Made by a program: the position numbers and the translations under genes. Below are positions 26,984-46,657 of a stretch of 52,557 nt of DNA, piece by piece. Each line of letters begins with the position of its first letter. The stretch's first letter is position 1. The notes beneath the pieces are model-generated. The model was not told where the DNA came from, ran no database searches, and saw only the letters and a list, made by a program, of their open reading frames with translations. The DNA is from Candidatus Bathyarchaeota archaeon BA2 (GTDB lineage: Archaea > Thermoproteota > Bathyarchaeia > Bathyarchaeales > Bathyarchaeaceae): positions 375 through 52,931 of the forward strand of contig LIHK01000054.1 in the NCBI GenBank assembly GCA_001399795.1, in the 5' to 3' direction.

Positions 26984-27535
26984 TTAGGTTCCCACCTTTT
27001 CAAGTATCTTGGAAAGACCTGTGATGTCGAAAAGTTTTGCAACGTTTTCCAGGTTAGCTTTTGGGAGGAGGGGCAGCCCTTCCTCTGCCCTCTTTTTGAG
27101 GCGCAGTTCCGGAATCATGTATGCGTAGCCTGTTTTTAGAATGTTAGAAGCCAACTCTTTAAAGACGACAGGCATATCCCTTTCTCTCACAGATAGGTTT
27201 CGAAGAGCCCGTATAATGTCGGCGATTCCCACGTCTTGCGGACAATGGTCGATGCATGTAAAGCAGGTAGAACAGAGCCAGATGACGTCGCTTGAAAGAA
27301 GTCTGTCTTTCAGACCTAGTTGCGTCATTCGGATGAGTTTTCTGGGTCTGTAGAAGTCGCTGAATCGCGCGATGGGGCAGTCAGCTGTGCAGGTGCCGCA
27401 TTGGAAGCACAGCATGACCTTTTCTGCGCCGGGAATTTTGCTGATCTCGTATTTGAATCTGGGATCTACATCGGTGATTTTGAGCACCATTCTTTGTTCA
27501 GTTTCCTTAGCTTCTCCTTTTTCAGTCTCAGCCAT
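26984..27535 (-). CDS. hdrC: Heterodisulfide reductase subunit C
   Basis: 183 aa. Two [4Fe-4S] motifs, CFQCGTCTADCP (about residue 43) and CSTCFTCIDHCP (about 87), in a helical protein of normal length. It transfers electrons from HdrA to HdrB. The start overlaps the end of mvhD by 8 nt, and the stop abuts the hdrB ATG. A charged N-terminal tail (about 15 residues, Glu/Lys-rich) precedes the conserved part. A paralogous HdrC-like domain is fused to a GltD-type flavoprotein at the head of this operon. Confidence 0.92.
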   Translation of the reverse strand: MAETEKGEAKETEQRMVLKITDVDPRFKYEISKIPGAEKVMLCFQCGTCTADCPIARFSDFYRPRKLIRMTQLGLKDRLLSSDVIWLCSTCFTCIDHCPQDVGIADIIRALRNLSVRERDMPVVFKELASNILKTGYAYMIPELRLKKRAEEGLPLLPKANLENVAKLFDITGLSKILEKVGT

Positions 27536-27965
27536 AGATTAAACCCTCCACTTGCACCTTCAATGGGCTTGGTCCAAGTTTCTTTATTTCCTCCGTCATA
27601 TCCTTAATAACTGTTGCGAATTTATCTCCTTCCGACGCAGAGACCCATTCTATCCTAAGCCTTTCGGGCTCGATACCAAACTGGAGTAAAAGCTTCTTCA
27701 ACATCATGATCCTTCGATGTGCTTTGAAATTGCCTGAGATGTAGTGGCAGTCGGATGGGAGGTGGCATCCAGCGACCAGAACCCCGTCTGCTCCGCTTCT
27801 AAATGCTTCGAGGATGAAAACTGGGTCCACCCTTCCACTGCACATCACCCGCACGATCCTGATGTTTGGAGGATACTGAATCCGGCTTACGCCAGCTAGG
27901 TCCGCCCCTGCATACGCGCACCAGTTGCACAGGAAACCAACGATTTTTGGCTCAAACTCAGTCAT
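27528..27965 (-). CDS. mvhD: MvhD-type 2Fe-2S subunit
   Basis: 145 aa, normal MvhD length. All five expected cysteines are present: LCNWCAY, VMCSGRV and GCHLPSDCHY. MvhD binds a [2Fe-2S] cluster and connects the hydrogenase MvhAG to HdrA. It sits between hdrA (8-nt overlap) and hdrC (8-nt overlap). A second, longer MvhD lies at 30969..31745, so the operon has two versions; this one lacks the extra DNA-binding-like tail. Confidence 0.92.
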   Translation of the reverse strand: MTEFEPKIVGFLCNWCAYAGADLAGVSRIQYPPNIRIVRVMCSGRVDPVFILEAFRSGADGVLVAGCHLPSDCHYISGNFKAHRRIMMLKKLLLQFGIEPERLRIEWVSASEGDKFATVIKDMTEEIKKLGPSPLKVQVEGLIYG

Positions 27966-30900: not shown

Positions 30901-30972
30901 TAGATCGAGGGACGCTTGTATTCCTGCTATTCCGCCGCCGACGACTAGTACGGCTCCTACCTTGTCTTTCAT
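27958..30972 (-). CDS. hdrA: Tandem HdrA fusion (HdrA'-HdrA)
   Basis: 1004 aa, far longer than a usual HdrA of about 650. Residues about 1-430 form an FAD domain (VVGGGIAGIQASLDLA) with an inserted double ferredoxin (CTGCGVCAQKCP, CIGCGTCQEVC). Residues about 445-1004 form a complete HdrA: N-terminal CHCGINIGG domain, second FAD site VIGGGLSGMTAALELA and a C-terminal double ferredoxin (CSGCRICEALC, CKGCGVCGSSCP). It should be the flavin core for electron bifurcation between MvhD, HdrC and ferredoxin. The neighbouring paralogue encodes the same two parts as separate genes. Two FADs in one chain is the main oddity. Confidence 0.9.
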   Translation of the reverse strand: MKDKVGAVLVVGGGIAGIQASLDLADSGFKVYLLDESPTIGGTMTQLDKTFPTNDCAMCILAPKLVTAGRHPNIELVMGGEIRSVEGEEGNFKVKLIRRPRRVNEEKCTGCGVCAQKCPVEAIDEFNQGLSERCAIYVKYPQAVPLVFAIDRDKCIGCGTCQEVCKAGAIEYDEEEKEIVLNVGSIVLAPGFEEFDPSLKSEYGYGRYPNVISSIEFERILSASGPYGGMVLRPSDGEVPRRVAFIQCVGSRDAKLGNNYCSFACCMYAIKESIIAKEHNPDLQCTIFFMDMRAFGKEFDAYYSRAEEEYGVRFVRSRVSRVEEVPESQNLIVRHVVEEEPKDEEFDLVVLSVGMRPPKGVEGLAKAFGIKLNKYNFCSTETFSPLETSRPGIYVCGTFAAPKDIPESVAQASGAAAKAASIIATERGKLTVIKELPSEIDVSGEEPRIGAFICHCGINIGGVVNVPEIVEYVKTLPNVVYAEENLYTCSQDTQKRIREKIKEHNLNRVVVASCTPRTHEPLFRETIREAGLNIYLFEMSNIRDQCSWVHMHEHEKATEKAKDLVRSIVAKARLLKPLKKPMINVVPVGLVIGGGLSGMTAALELAKQGFDVHLVEKEKELGGNLRHIHYVLGSEDPQERLSSIVKEVSENEKIHVYLGAEIANIEGYVGNFKTTLNHNGEKKEIDHGIVIVATGAIEYKPTEYLYKEDERVLTQRELEERLAKGEFNAKTVAMIQCVGSRNEERPNCSRICCVQAVKNALKIKELSSETDVYVFYKDVRTYGLNEDYYREAASRGILFIRYDDENKPRVSRENGPLKVLAMEPVLKTWLPIEPDLLVLSAATIPNPDNQRISEMLKVPLTKDGFFLEAHMKLRPIDFATEGVFLCGLAHSPKLIEESISQACGAAARAITILSKKALEVEGAIASVNEDLCSGCRICEALCEYGAIKMEGKDGKLVSTVLEALCKGCGVCGSSCPTGAISMLHFTDDEILAQVRAALREKKHD

Positions 30973-31745
30973 CTTCCCACCTCCAGCGCAGTGTATAATG
31001 GAGATGTCCCCTCGACTCTGTCAACCGTGATCAAGCCTCTTCGTCTCATAACCACTACGTGACGTAGCACCGTCTTGGAATCTAAGTCCAGACGCTCGGA
31101 CAACTCCTTGACGGACAAGGGTTTCTCCTTAACCAAAAGATAAATTCTGTTGCGCACAAATTCAGTGTCGATAACTTCGTTCAGGATTTTATCAAGCTCT
31201 TCCTCTGAGACTTTTTCTCCATACACGTTTCCATCATCAATCATCGTTTTCTCTCTGCCCACCAATAGTCGCAGTCTAAAGTCTTCTGCCGCTGCCTTGG
31301 CTGCTAATACACCTGCCAGTATGTTCTTGTCTGGTTTGTCTCCAGCCAACGGAGATGGACCCAGAGCTTTTATTTGTTCTACAAAATCCTTGACAAGTTC
31401 CGCAAATCGCCCACCCTCCGAGGCGGAGACCCATTCAAGACGTAGACGTCCCACCTCCAAACTAGTTCGCGCCAGAAGTTTTTTCAACACATTTATCTTA
31501 CGCTCAGCATAAAGGTTGCCAGATATATAGTGGCAGTCGCCAATATGGCAACCCATCACCAGGACGCCGTCGGCGCCTTGGGCCAGCGTTTCCAGAACGA
31601 TGACTGGCTCAACCCTCCCGCTGCACATCAACCTTATTATCCTTATGTTTGTCGGGTAGGATATTCTGCTAACTCCCGCTAAGTCAGCGCCAGCATAAGA
31701 ACACCAATTGCAGAGGAATCCAACTATTCTTGGTTCAAACGTCAT
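30969..31745 (-). CDS. mvhD: MvhD subunit fused to a winged-helix domain
   Basis: 258 aa. Residues 1-140 are a full MvhD with LCNWCSY, LMCSGRV and GCHIGDCHY. A linker follows, and residues about 195-258 read PLSVKELSERLDLDSKTVLR then RRRGLITVDRVEG, a winged helix-turn-helix with wing. Such an add-on could let the redox subunit bind DNA, or the fold may have been reused for protein contacts. It overlaps hdrA genes by 4 nt on each side, so it is expressed with them. The 2Fe-2S site looks intact. Confidence 0.88.
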   Translation of the reverse strand: MTFEPRIVGFLCNWCSYAGADLAGVSRISYPTNIRIIRLMCSGRVEPVIVLETLAQGADGVLVMGCHIGDCHYISGNLYAERKINVLKKLLARTSLEVGRLRLEWVSASEGGRFAELVKDFVEQIKALGPSPLAGDKPDKNILAGVLAAKAAAEDFRLRLLVGREKTMIDDGNVYGEKVSEEELDKILNEVIDTEFVRNRIYLLVKEKPLSVKELSERLDLDSKTVLRHVVVMRRRGLITVDRVEGTSPLYTALEVGR

Positions 31746-39859: not shown

Positions 39860-42125
<2,266 letters not shown>

Positions 42126-42250: not shown

Positions 42251-43204
42251 TCATGCTTTGTAGTAGTAGGGTCTTTTAATATAGCCGAACGCTTCGCTGG
42301 CCGCGATTATGGCTTGTCCAACAGCAGTTCCAATCTGTTTTACAGTGCCATTAGTCACGTCGCCAGCAGCGTAAACTCCGCTAATGTTTGTTCTCTGACG
42401 ACTATCCACAACGATATAGCCAGCCTTATCCACTTCTATTCCAGCCTCTTCGGCGATCTGGCTGTTTGGCGCCTCGCCGACTTGAACGAATACGCCGTCT
42501 ACGCTTATTTCTTTGGTTTCGCCTGTTCTGTTGTTTACTAAGACAACCCCTTTTACTCTGGTGTCTCCCTTTACTTCTTTGAGCTCTGTGTTCCACATAA
42601 TTTCCACCCCTTGCGCGATCAAGTCCTCTACAAGGGCTTGTTCTGCCCTTAGTTGATCTCTTCGGTGAGCCAGCTTGACACTGGACGCTACATTTGCGAG
42701 GTATCTGGCAGAAACTACGGCTGAATTTCCACCGCCCACCACAAGCACGTTTCTCCCCTTAAAGAGGGTTCCGTCGCACAATGTGCAGTAACTAACTCCC
42801 CTCCCTCGAAATTCGGCCTCACCAGGCACTCCGAGGGTTCTATGGTGGCTTCCAGAGGCGATGATCACTGCCGAGGCTGTGTAAACCGCTCTAGTCGTCT
42901 TAACACTTTTCTTTTCACCCTTAAGGTCGAGTTCAACGACTCTTTCCAACTCATTGATATTTGCCCCAGCTTTCTTGCAGTGTTCAGCCATTTTGTCAGC
43001 TAATTCGCTGCCACTAATGGCTCCGAAACCTGGGTAGTTTTCAACCAACGGAGCGTCAGCGACCGCTCCACCGGGCATTTTCTCGTCCAGAACTAGAGTT
43101 TTAAGTCCGCTGCGGGCACCGTAGAGACCAGCCGTTAGACCTGCCGGCCCAGCGCCTACAATAATTAAGTCCCAACGCTCCATAGTCATCACCATACGTG
43201 ACAA
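42251..43204 (-). CDS. trxB: Thioredoxin reductase family protein
   Basis: 317 aa. FAD motif IVGAGPAGLTAGLYGARSG, redox-active pair in SYCTLCDGTLF (CxxC), NAD(P)-binding VVGGGNSAVVSARYLA, and C-terminal GVYAAGDVTNGTVKQIGTAVGQ. It reduces thioredoxin or a glutaredoxin-like protein using NAD(P)H, though some archaeal members use other donors. It has the same orientation as the Nfn pair (126 nt downstream) and could share its transcript. ATG choice: the track start MSRMVMTMERWD has three possible ATGs; MERWDLIIVG is the conserved beginning. Confidence 0.88.
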   Translation of the reverse strand: MSRMVMTMERWDLIIVGAGPAGLTAGLYGARSGLKTLVLDEKMPGGAVADAPLVENYPGFGAISGSELADKMAEHCKKAGANINELERVVELDLKGEKKSVKTTRAVYTASAVIIASGSHHRTLGVPGEAEFRGRGVSYCTLCDGTLFKGRNVLVVGGGNSAVVSARYLANVASSVKLAHRRDQLRAEQALVEDLIAQGVEIMWNTELKEVKGDTRVKGVVLVNNRTGETKEISVDGVFVQVGEAPNSQIAEEAGIEVDKAGYIVVDSRQRTNISGVYAAGDVTNGTVKQIGTAVGQAIIAASEAFGYIKRPYYYKA

Positions 43205-43400
43205 TTCGCATTAGCTCTTATGAATGTTATTTGCTGAAACCAAGGTAAGAAAGTAGCTGTTTTGGGTTAAGAAAAATAGTGTTAGCCATTTCGTTAATAT
43301 GTTTAGGTGCTTTTAATATTACGAAGCGTTGTTGCGATGTACCGCAGCTAAGCTGGCAACATATAATTTAACTAGTCGCTTTCACAAAAGTGTTGTAGAG

Positions 43401-44240
43401 ATGTTTGTGATGCAACCTATCGAGGATCTAGCAGCTAAGTTAAAAAAAGTAGTCAGGGCCGACAAAGAGGTTTTACTTGCCTATCTATTCGGCTCACGTG
43501 GTGAAGGGAGAGTAGCCAAGCACAGCGATGTTGATATCGCGATTTTACATTGCGGCGACGAGTTGATGAAGGCTGGCGAAGTCAAAGAGAAGGCTGCTAG
43601 GGAGCTAAAGCTTGATGAGGATAGGATTGATGTTGTCGATATCTCTAAGGCTCCACTCACGCTCAAGCTTAGCATAGTTAAAGGGTTAAAGCTTATTGAC
43701 AGAGGTAATTATGAGAAAGCGCTCATTGATGAGTTAAACAAAAAGTTTCCCGAAACACGTATAATAATAAATTCGTCGGTGCGGGAAGCTATAGAATGCA
43801 ACGCTTTTAGCTTAAGGCGCGACGTTCTATATTCAAGGCTTCAAAAAGTTAGAGAGGAGGCAACATACCTAAAAGAAGAGATATTAGTGAGAGGGGTTGA
43901 AGCTGTCGTCCTAGACGGAACCACACGTAGGGCTATGGCTAGGTCTATCCATGAGCTAATTGAGGCCATGCTTGATATATGTCGTCATCTGGTCTCCGTA
44001 AAGGCCCTTGGCCCGACTGAAACATACACCGACTTCCCACGCCTGTTAAGTGAGCACAACCTAATACCTCCTTCCCTAGCTGAAGCACTTGAAGAAGTCG
44101 CAAGGCTAAGGAATGTACTTGTTCATAGATACATTGAGGTTGACTACGGTAGATTACTCAGTAAGGCTCGCGAAATTATAGATCGTGTTGTACCAAAATT
44201 TGAAGAATGGGTTCTGGGACTTCTAAGGGAGAGCAAGTAG
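43401..44240 (+). CDS. MNT nucleotidyltransferase fused to HEPN domain
   Basis: The track starts at TTG 43329; ATG 43401 (MFVMQPIEDL) is the more likely start, giving 279 aa. The N-terminal MNT domain (about 1-110) has LFGSRGEGRVAKHSDVDIAIL, the GS..[10].DxD nucleotidyltransferase motif. The C-terminal DUF86/HEPN domain (about 125-275) has the RNVLVH catalytic motif (Rx4H). MntA-HepT pairs normally are separate antitoxin and toxin, where MntA modifies and silences HepT. Here they are one polypeptide, so inhibition may occur within the chain. It is divergent from trxB. Confidence 0.82.
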   Translation: MFVMQPIEDLAAKLKKVVRADKEVLLAYLFGSRGEGRVAKHSDVDIAILHCGDELMKAGEVKEKAARELKLDEDRIDVVDISKAPLTLKLSIVKGLKLIDRGNYEKALIDELNKKFPETRIIINSSVREAIECNAFSLRRDVLYSRLQKVREEATYLKEEILVRGVEAVVLDGTTRRAMARSIHELIEAMLDICRHLVSVKALGPTETYTDFPRLLSEHNLIPPSLAEALEEVARLRNVLVHRYIEVDYGRLLSKAREIIDRVVPKFEEWVLGLLRESK

Positions 44241-44281: not shown

Positions 44282-46657
44282 TTACGACCTTGCAAGTTTT
44301 TCTTTGACGTCCTCCCGAGTTTTCCCTGGAAGCGGCCCCATCTTTGAAATTCTGGAGTTAAATGTTTCGAATGTTTCGGTTACCTTTCCGTATTCCGGAA
44401 GCGTTGTAGAAAACGACATTAGGCGGAGGGGTTCGATGCCATAAGCCCTTAACTCCTTTTTCATTTGGATGACGTGTTCCCTTAGGGCTTCCTCAGTGAA
44501 CACGCCGCCGTGGTCCTCAAGCAATATGACGCCGTCAGCTCCGGAAGCGAATGCTTGTAGCACGTGTTTCAAGCCAACGCGTCCTGTGCTGGGAACGCCA
44601 ATTATCCTAACGTTTGGAGGGAAAGAAACTCTGCTTTGCCCAGCCAAGTCTGCAGAGCCGTAAGCTATTTCCTTTTCAAGGAAGGCAATGATCTTCGGGG
44701 GTTTGCCGCCTTCACTTACCCCGCGGATTTGAGCCATCAACTGGGCTTCGGTGGAGTTTTTAAGGTCAATGGCTTCCCTTGGGCATCTTGGCACGCAAAT
44801 TCCACACCCGACACAAGAGATCGGGTTGATTGTTATGGCCTCCGGAGACTTTTCCACCGCTGCCACGGGACACACCTTGATGCATATTTCACACATGTCG
44901 CATTTCTCTTGAATGATGTAGACCACTTCTGGCGAAACAGAAATCTCGCCTTTCCCTACAAAGGTTGCTACCCTTGAGGCAGTAGCCATTGCTTCTAGAG
45001 TTGTTTCCCTGACATCCTTCGGACTTAGGGCGCATCCGGCAACAAACAATCCCTCGCGTTGGCTGTCAACCGGTCTAAGCTTGTAGTGCCTCTCCAAGAG
45101 GAAGCCATCAGAGCCAACCTGAATGCCTAATTTTTTTGCTAATTCCTCGGTGCCAAAATTAGGAACGATCCCCAGAGCGAGCACCACTAGGTCAAACTTT
45201 CCTTCAACTTGTGCTCCAATAAGGGTGTCCTCTGCCTTCACAAGTATTCCATCGTTATTTGATGGAACAATTTCCGCTACTCGTCCCCTGACAAATCGCA
45301 CCTTATGATCTTGAGCCGTGGCGTAAAATTCTTCATATCCCTTTCCATCAGCTCTTATATCCGTGTAAAAAATCCAAGGTTCAGCATCAGGCACAACCTT
45401 CTGAAGTAACATAGCCTGCTTAATAGACGCCATGCAACCTATCTTGCAACAGTGTTCAACCCCCTCTTCCTTGTTCATCGTTCGACTGCCCACGCAAAGT
45501 ATGAAGGCCACTTTTTTCGCCACCTTCCCATTGGACGGCCTGCGTAATCCTTGCCCGATGAGTCGCTCGAACTGCAGGTTAGTTACGATATCTGGATGTA
45601 AACCGAAGGCATACTCCTCTGGGATTTTCGGGTCTAATTGCTGGAATCCGGTGCAAGCAACGATTACACCCACATCTAGCTCAATGGTTTCTTCTTTCTG
45701 TTCGAAATCGACGGCTTTGCCCTTGCAGATTTTTTCGCAAAGCCTACAAACCCCTTTATTAAAGAATAAGCAGTGATCTTTGTCTATAACGTATGTCTTG
45801 GGAACCGCCTGCTTAAAAGGAGTGTAAATAGCCTTTCGCGGAAGCGTGGCGGCTTCAAATTCGCTTGGGACTTTGACAGGGCAGACTTTTTCGCATTCCC
45901 CGCAAGCTGTACATTTGGCTGCGTCCACGAATCTAGGTCTCTTCTTGATTAAGACTCTGTAGTTGCCGGGTGACCCTTCGGCGGCCTCTGGTTCTGCCAT
46001 GCTGATGATCTTTATATGTGGATGTTGCGAGGTAGACACCATTTTTGGTGTCAGAATGCACTGGGAGCAGTCTAGGGTGGGAAAAGTTTTGCTAAGCTGA
46101 GCCATGTGCCCGCCTATGCTCGGGCTTCTCTCAACTAGGTATACTTGATAGCCTTTATCAGCCAATTCTAGAGAGGTGATAATACCCGCGATTCCTCCCC
46201 CGATAACCAGAACATCCTGATTCACAGGCGTGGTCTTAACCTCTAAGGGTTCAAGGTAACGAGTTCGCTCCACTGCCCCGCGGATAAGGTCGATTGCCTT
46301 AGATGTTGCGGCCTCTATGTCGTCGTGAACCCAGCTACACTGTTCCCTAACGTTAGCCATTTCAAGGAAGTAGGGGTTCAAACCAGCCGATTCTAAGGTT
46401 CGCCTAAAAGTGTCAAGGTGCATCCGCGGTGAACACGAAGCCACTACAATTCTGTTAAGCCCGTGCTCTTTTATGCCCTCCTGTATCATCTCTTGCCCAG
46501 GGTCGCTACACACATATTCATAAGTTTTTGCAACCTTCACTCCTTCCATTTTGGAAGCAGCTTCTCTAACCTTTTCCACATCTACTGTATCGCTTATGTT
46601 TCCTCCACAATGACAAATGTAAACTCCGATCTTAGGTTCTTCTTTCGCCAATTTCAA
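44282..46657 (-). CDS. hdrA: HdrA with degenerate MvhD domain
   Basis: 791 aa. HdrA N-terminal domain (YICHCGGNISD, SCSPRMHLDTFRR), FAD motif VIGGGIAGIITSLELADKG, inserted ferredoxins (CTACGECEKVCP; CLFFNKGVCRLCEKIC), and C-terminal double ferredoxin (CDMCEICIKVCP, CVGCGICVPRCP). Residues about 650-770 align with MvhD (YGSADLAGQSRVSFPPNVRI), but none of its five cysteines remains: the CNWC, MCSG and GCH..DCH positions read EKEI, PSTG and LEDHGG. It cannot hold the [2Fe-2S] cluster. It is a stand-alone gene divergent from hypF, apart from the main hdr operon, so it may serve another electron donor. Architecture recalls QmoB. Confidence 0.9.
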   Translation of the reverse strand: MKLAKEEPKIGVYICHCGGNISDTVDVEKVREAASKMEGVKVAKTYEYVCSDPGQEMIQEGIKEHGLNRIVVASCSPRMHLDTFRRTLESAGLNPYFLEMANVREQCSWVHDDIEAATSKAIDLIRGAVERTRYLEPLEVKTTPVNQDVLVIGGGIAGIITSLELADKGYQVYLVERSPSIGGHMAQLSKTFPTLDCSQCILTPKMVSTSQHPHIKIISMAEPEAAEGSPGNYRVLIKKRPRFVDAAKCTACGECEKVCPVKVPSEFEAATLPRKAIYTPFKQAVPKTYVIDKDHCLFFNKGVCRLCEKICKGKAVDFEQKEETIELDVGVIVACTGFQQLDPKIPEEYAFGLHPDIVTNLQFERLIGQGLRRPSNGKVAKKVAFILCVGSRTMNKEEGVEHCCKIGCMASIKQAMLLQKVVPDAEPWIFYTDIRADGKGYEEFYATAQDHKVRFVRGRVAEIVPSNNDGILVKAEDTLIGAQVEGKFDLVVLALGIVPNFGTEELAKKLGIQVGSDGFLLERHYKLRPVDSQREGLFVAGCALSPKDVRETTLEAMATASRVATFVGKGEISVSPEVVYIIQEKCDMCEICIKVCPVAAVEKSPEAITINPISCVGCGICVPRCPREAIDLKNSTEAQLMAQIRGVSEGGKPPKIIAFLEKEIAYGSADLAGQSRVSFPPNVRIIGVPSTGRVGLKHVLQAFASGADGVILLEDHGGVFTEEALREHVIQMKKELRAYGIEPLRLMSFSTTLPEYGKVTETFETFNSRISKMGPLPGKTREDVKEKLARS

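Follow-up and report, generated by a model that had tools for sequence, protein, structure and literature searches.

An HdrA–MvhD fusion protein encoded in the window, by which we mean the whole stretch of 52,557 nucleotides analyzed here, belongs to a single clade of Thermoproteota HdrA proteins that has lost the [2Fe-2S] ligands of its MvhD domain. On balance, we favor the reading that this clade is ancient, that the cluster was lost once, that the domain stayed folded and constrained, and that hydrogenase was exchanged for other, often flavoprotein, donors, with the cluster-less domain serving as a scaffold or docking element. The gene (44282..46657, minus strand) is an open reading frame of 791 codons with a TTG start, from a metagenome-assembled genome of 1.46 Mb that is 92.5% complete. 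Domain searches identified FAD/NAD-binding, Fer4, and PF02662 (FlpD/MvhD) domains in the protein, the last spanning residues 656 to 774 (44336..44692, minus strand) and reaching a score of 88.6 bits (cut-off 22.3). The HdrA part can be aligned over its full length with solved HdrA proteins (5odc_A and 8rvu), and its core is 41 to 46% identical to, and superposable on, the HdrA structures in the PDB. The thioredoxin-reductase-like FAD-binding domain, the N-terminal cysteine domain, and the inserted and C-terminal ferredoxin domains are all present. HdrA–MvhD fusions are already known as type Ia, or HdrA2, proteins (PMC12054007 and PMC5296606). A C-terminal MvhD domain fused to HdrA, as in type Ia, is supported in the query by PF02662, the structural model, and the fold match, whereas the [2Fe-2S] ligands of that type are absent; the HdrA2 family model NF040770, aligned over residues 9 to 775, scores 873.2 bits, below its curated cut-off of 1100. 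Because the HdrA features other than the CSxxCC motif are all found, we class the query as a variant HdrA rather than a nonmember.

Residues 653 to 791 contain no cysteine. LEKEI replaces CCNWC (residues 660 to 664; 44666..44680, minus strand; codons CTTGAAAAGGAAATA read in the DNA), PSTG replaces MCSG (residues 689 to 692; 44582..44593, minus strand; codons CCCAGCACAGGA read in the DNA), and EDHGGVF lies at the expected GCHxxDCH site (residues 714 to 720; 44498..44518, minus strand; codons likewise read in the DNA). The codons confirm the claim of an earlier note on this DNA that the MvhD cluster cysteines are all lost, with EKEI and PSTG at the first two sites and no cysteine at the third. 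The motifs used for comparison (CCNWC or LCNWC, MCSG, and GCHxxDCH-type) are present in both separate MvhD proteins of the main operon and in another fusion on contig C15 of the query genome. This genome carries three further FlpD domains, all Cys intact, two of which are separate proteins of the main operon; the separate MvhD of the mvh-hdr operon at 27528..27965 (minus strand), Cys intact by domain search and motif alignment, provides an internal contrast. Across relatives, the MvhD domain contains no cysteine in 15 of 23 query-type and all 19 ETF-type proteins and a single one in the remainder, which rules out replacement cysteines at shifted positions, an objection the earlier note had anticipated. 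Its other anticipated objection, read errors at the motif codons, fares no better. An error in sequencing, frame, or assembly is a vanishingly improbable cause of the missing cysteines, because independent genomes share the residues and the loss spans the whole clade: the frame is intact, dozens of independent genomes carry identical residues, and two of them, L009 and L010, which encode proteins 82 to 83% identical to the query, are identical to it at the motif sites. Also in the main hdr-mvh operon, a gene at 30969-31745 (minus strand) encodes a protein in which an MvhD/FlpD domain that keeps its cysteines is joined to a winged helix-turn-helix domain. Homologues occur in L133 and L152, and this protein could be a redox-linked regulator.

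The retrieved homologues separate cleanly. Query-type proteins (55 to 83% identical) and ETF-linked proteins (about 45 to 49%) lack the MvhD ligands, and the remaining fusions retain CNWC or CSEC/CAEC-type motifs. Trees were built from the HdrA core only, with the MvhD columns excluded, and Cys status was taken from the aligned motifs. A classifier based on fixed residue numbers mislabeled L140, L141, L145, L192, and L199, probably owing to their longer N termini, and L237 was flagged as partial on account of two cysteines further along, its motif positions being Cys-free. In the HdrA-core tree the Cys-free fusions (38 of 38) all fall on one side of one branch (SH-aLRT 99). With added Thermoproteota lineages the clade comprises 45 HdrA–MvhD fusions, again with an SH-aLRT of 99 on the HdrA core, which answers in the affirmative the earlier note's question of whether the loss is shared by a clade. 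A bootstrapped tree of 40 rows likewise places 23/23 Cys-free fusions together (bootstrap 100, SH-aLRT 99). The clade includes Bathyarchaeia and other Thermoproteota lineages and families, among them Nezhaarchaeota (L052). Independent recent losses among relatives of the query are ruled out by this single branch, and the tree argues for one old event across many archaea rather than a peculiarity of the query gene. Separate MvhDs encoded beside neighboring HdrA lineages retain their cysteines, which makes a Cys-containing ancestor probable, although the tree has no fixed root. Outside the clade, a second HdrA of Thermoplasmata (L046, L047, and L050) is also an MvhD fusion that has lost most of its cysteines and, like query-type fusions, occurs in a run with hdrCB, but unlike the query it keeps two; its partial loss is possibly an independent event. 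The L046 run that contains this second HdrA also holds mvhGA, two hdrCB pairs, and a separate MvhD whose cysteines are intact. At L130 (genome G044), a Cys-containing separate MvhD lies beside HdrA, HdrD, and ETF genes.

The domain appears to have retained its fold. An AF2 model of the query MvhD domain (pLDDT 90.7) matches solved MvhD structures with TM scores of 0.77 to 0.81 and E values down to 4e-12, the best match being 5odc_D (TM 0.81), and the full-length model (pLDDT 91.5) matches HdrA; with the MvhD fold present in the model, a new fold for the domain is ruled out. Every complete member of the clade has a full-length MvhD domain. One might suppose that the domain is a vestige with no partner role, kept only since its loss would destabilize the protein, and it does evolve slightly faster than the core, with a domain-to-core rate ratio of 1.16 to 1.18 in the Cys-free set and 1.04 in Cys-containing fusions. 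Several lines of evidence make this unlikely. The domain persists at full length across an old, multilineage clade and is under purifying selection: for L009/L010, the most closely related pair whose dS is not saturated, dN/dS is about 0.05 for the domain and 0.10 for the core. Moreover, HdrA homologues without an MvhD domain are common, and therefore losing it is possible. The retained fold in the model, a rate near that of the core, and a set of invariant residues in the Cys-free proteins (domain numbering F14, Y21, D25, G28, R31, P44, A59, G61-A62-D63-G64, E69, R100, and R136) all disfavor decay. The same conservation could be taken to mean that the domain now carries a different redox cofactor (a flavin, a nucleotide, or some other metal site) and continues to pass electrons on. 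Indeed, the new residues are highly conserved within the clade (F, Y, D, G, R, P, GADG, E, and R), an invariant glutamate occupies the former GCH position, and the fold is alpha/beta. However, many of the conserved positions are common to Cys-containing MvhD and look structural, and the structure search returned no clear nucleotide- or flavin-binding fold, the matches beyond MvhD being weak and lumazine-synthase-like (E about 1e-3); we therefore judge a substitute cofactor improbable. The earlier note had proposed that the domain is kept for structure or docking. The fold, purifying selection, and clade-wide conservation bear out a function beyond cluster binding, of which docking would be one form.

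The remainder of the HdrA part retains the residues associated with bifurcation. By alignment to 5odc_A, E364 (45566..45568, minus strand) and K413 (45419..45421, minus strand) are the equivalents of E356 and K409, which are named as the bifurcation residues of HdrA in PMC12054007, and both positions are nearly invariant among the homologues. As the earlier note had it, both C-terminal ferredoxin clusters remain: the two 4-Cys motifs, C586/589/592/596 and C615/618/621/625, are intact (residues 586 to 625; 44783..44902, minus strand), and their cysteines are conserved among the homologues. A further change, missed by that note, lies in the thioredoxin-reductase-like domain, where the cluster motif reads C388...C403-C404-K-I-G-C408 (45434..45496, minus strand), with CCKIGC in place of CSxxCC. 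Compared with the FAD-proximal motif C(x)n-CSxxCC, one ligand position is lost and one cysteine gained, so that four cysteines remain in total. By the ligand numbering of 5ODC, we take this site to hold the [4Fe-4S] cluster near the FAD that leads to HdrC. CCKIGC is found in every query-type member in which the motif was located (CCNIGC in L018), and ETF-type members retain CSxxCC. This is a second change in cluster ligands, fixed in the query-type subclade.

Gene context sets the Cys-free fusions apart from their hydrogenase-linked relatives. Fusions linked to mvhG-mvhA, which carry CSEC/CAEC-type motifs, keep their cysteines in five of five cases, all in the order mvhG-mvhA-hdrA-hdrC-hdrB. 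No mvhD, mvhG, or mvhA is present in the operon run of any Cys-free fusion, the query included. Instead, query-type genes have hdrC-hdrB downstream in the run or as a divergent operon at 16 loci, with HdrB partners scattered over several HdrB lineages. At 13 Cys-free loci of the ETF type, etfB-etfA lies in the same run, together with an acyl-CoA dehydrogenase at several, and an HdrD-like protein is encoded divergently or adjacently at nearly all loci of this type. At the query-type loci L148 and L189 an FrhB gene follows, and a TfrA-like (fumarate-reductase-like) flavoprotein accompanies hdrCB beside Cys-free HdrA in L181, L183, L186, L238, and L240, the last two from other Bathyarchaeia. These five loci also encode a small ferredoxin-like protein and a flavoprotein resembling fumarate reductase or L-aspartate oxidase with about 90 extra N-terminal residues. 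All of these are candidate partners, co-occurrence in an operon not being contact. At some Cys-free loci (L142 and L143; hypF/hypB/hypA in the window), the opposite strand carries hydrogenase or hyp genes nearby, so that Cys-free HdrA may have a tie to H2. A separate Cys-containing MvhD, such as that of the main operon, might also supply the missing cluster in trans. The query genome has the means, in its three other Cys-intact FlpD domains, and in Methanothermococcus a single MvhD is believed to work with two donor modules (PMC12350162). Nevertheless, the fused domain should fill the very site at which such a subunit would bind, and with no separate mvhD in the operon of any Cys-free locus, supply in trans seems very unlikely. 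On contig C74 of genome G005 (L138), Cys-free and Cys-containing fusions lie about 3 kb apart.

In the query genome, hdrA is unlinked to hdrCB and etf. The earlier note's description of the gene as standing apart from the main operon holds for this genome, yet the gene has a neighborhood of its own and its relatives are usually found with hdrC-hdrB or etfBA. Downstream lie genes for a thioredoxin reductase (trxR, 42251..43204; TIGR01292, 352 bits against a cut-off of 343), an NfnA-like FAD/NAD-binding subunit (41283..42125; PRK06222), and an NfnB/GltA-like subunit (39860..41290; TIGR01316, 620 bits), all on the minus strand, and hdrA and trxR overlap in the closest relatives, G008 and G015. 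Between hdrA and trxR in the window, a single open reading frame on the plus strand (43329-44240) combines MntA-like antitoxin and HepT-like toxin sequences. Contig C13 carries an hdrCB pair without hdrA, whose HdrB falls in the tree with those linked to Cys-free HdrA (SH-aLRT 97); the pair has no close counterpart (best 41 to 43%) in G008 or G015, the genomes nearest to the query. By this grouping, which gives partial support, the orphan pair on C13 is the likely disulfide-side partner of the query. Contig C43 (L244, 1-4017) holds an HdrD-EtfB-EtfA operon without hdrA. Since the contig starts inside hdrD, a divergent hdrA next to it could be hidden by the gap; however, this hdrD-etfBA(-acd) operon, likewise lacking hdrA, also occurs in the near-complete genomes G008 and G015, and the homologues listed for either include no HdrA of the ETF type. 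The C43 operon is one candidate donor for the query HdrA. HdrD-EtfB-EtfA(-acyl-CoA dehydrogenase) operons without HdrA recur in the query family (C43, L268, L269, and L271), and their homologues elsewhere adjoin Cys-free HdrA. Neither FrhB nor the fumarate-reductase-like flavoprotein of the L238 type had a match in the query genome, in a search that had no positive control, so that their absence is weakly indicated.

All MvhD cluster ligands are gone, and other electron donors, often flavoproteins, are therefore probable. In the reading we favor, the relay was lost once, as this branch left [NiFe]-hydrogenase for other, mostly flavoprotein, input partners, which would include ETF with acyl-CoA dehydrogenase, a fumarate-reductase-like flavoprotein, and FrhB; the disulfide side would be served by HdrCB or an HdrD-like protein. 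Electrons would enter HdrA either at its own C-terminal ferredoxin clusters or straight at the FAD, the MvhD position being left out of the path, and the MvhD-like domain would form a scaffold or docking part of a mobile donor arm. PMC12350162 describes such an arm in Elp-Hdr and Fdh-Hdr, in which the donor subunits swing together with MvhD/ElpC and the terminal domains of HdrA; there the MvhD/ElpC [2Fe-2S] cluster is proposed to be the final carrier ahead of the FAD, with transfer "by an unknown mechanism" over 25 Å in one state. The earlier note had argued that electrons must enter by a different path. The usual [2Fe-2S] route is indeed inoperable, and operon partners other than mvhDAG fit another donor, although the actual route is our inference. 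A bolder proposal, which we put forward tentatively, is that the cluster-less MvhD is a docking platform from which flavoproteins (ETF, fumarate-reductase-like, or FrhB) feed HdrA directly, defining a separate Hdr class without a [2Fe-2S] step. If so, an ETF-HdrA-HdrD system, for example, would link the oxidation of acyl-CoA with the chemistry of ferredoxin and disulfide, and a step regarded as indispensable for supplying the bifurcating FAD would never be used in that class.

Among known systems, HdrA2 of Methanosarcina acetivorans (HdrA2B2C2, type Ia) has the same domain order and length as the query, and it requires no hydrogenase, using F420H2 and ferredoxin (PMC5296606); unlike the query, it has a predicted [2Fe-2S] cluster in its MvhD domain. 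The HdrABC-MvhADG, Fdh-Hdr, and Elp-Hdr complexes of methanogens (5ODC, 7BKB-E, and 8RVU/8RVY) contain an HdrA core and an MvhD fold like those of the query, but in them MvhD/ElpC is a separate subunit with a [2Fe-2S] cluster, whereas in the query it is fused and cluster-less. ElpA, which lost its Mo cofactor yet remains in the Hdr donor arm, and other inactive molybdopterin-oxidoreductase subunits offer a parallel (PMC12350162 and PMC12054007), in that the cofactor was lost and the arm component kept. ElpA is, however, a different protein, and in the query clade the component without its cluster is the MvhD connector. No mention of a Cys-free MvhD domain was found in the passages searched of open-access papers on HdrA classes, Bathyarchaeia, and Hdr structures. 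An old, conserved clade that has the arm domain and the bifurcation residues without the cluster is a natural experiment on the final step of feeding the FAD: either the FAD can be fed without a [2Fe-2S] cluster, or the Cys-free enzymes work differently. The clade also suggests that Bathyarchaeia, abundant archaea of sediments, have an ETF/acyl-CoA-linked Hdr system, and it calls for caution in annotation, as the domain name alone would mislabel Cys-free fusions as hydrogenase-linked HdrA2.

Two further observations concern related loci. Between trxR and nfnA in L124 (12922-14127), a gene encodes a protein with several ferredoxin motifs and an FlpD domain, and similar genes occupy this place in L192, L193, and others. 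In bacterial loci including L049, L054, and L059, the HdrA frames break at the DCSxC site, between the positions of query residues 198 and 201, and breaks of this kind are what a selenocysteine TGA codon would produce.
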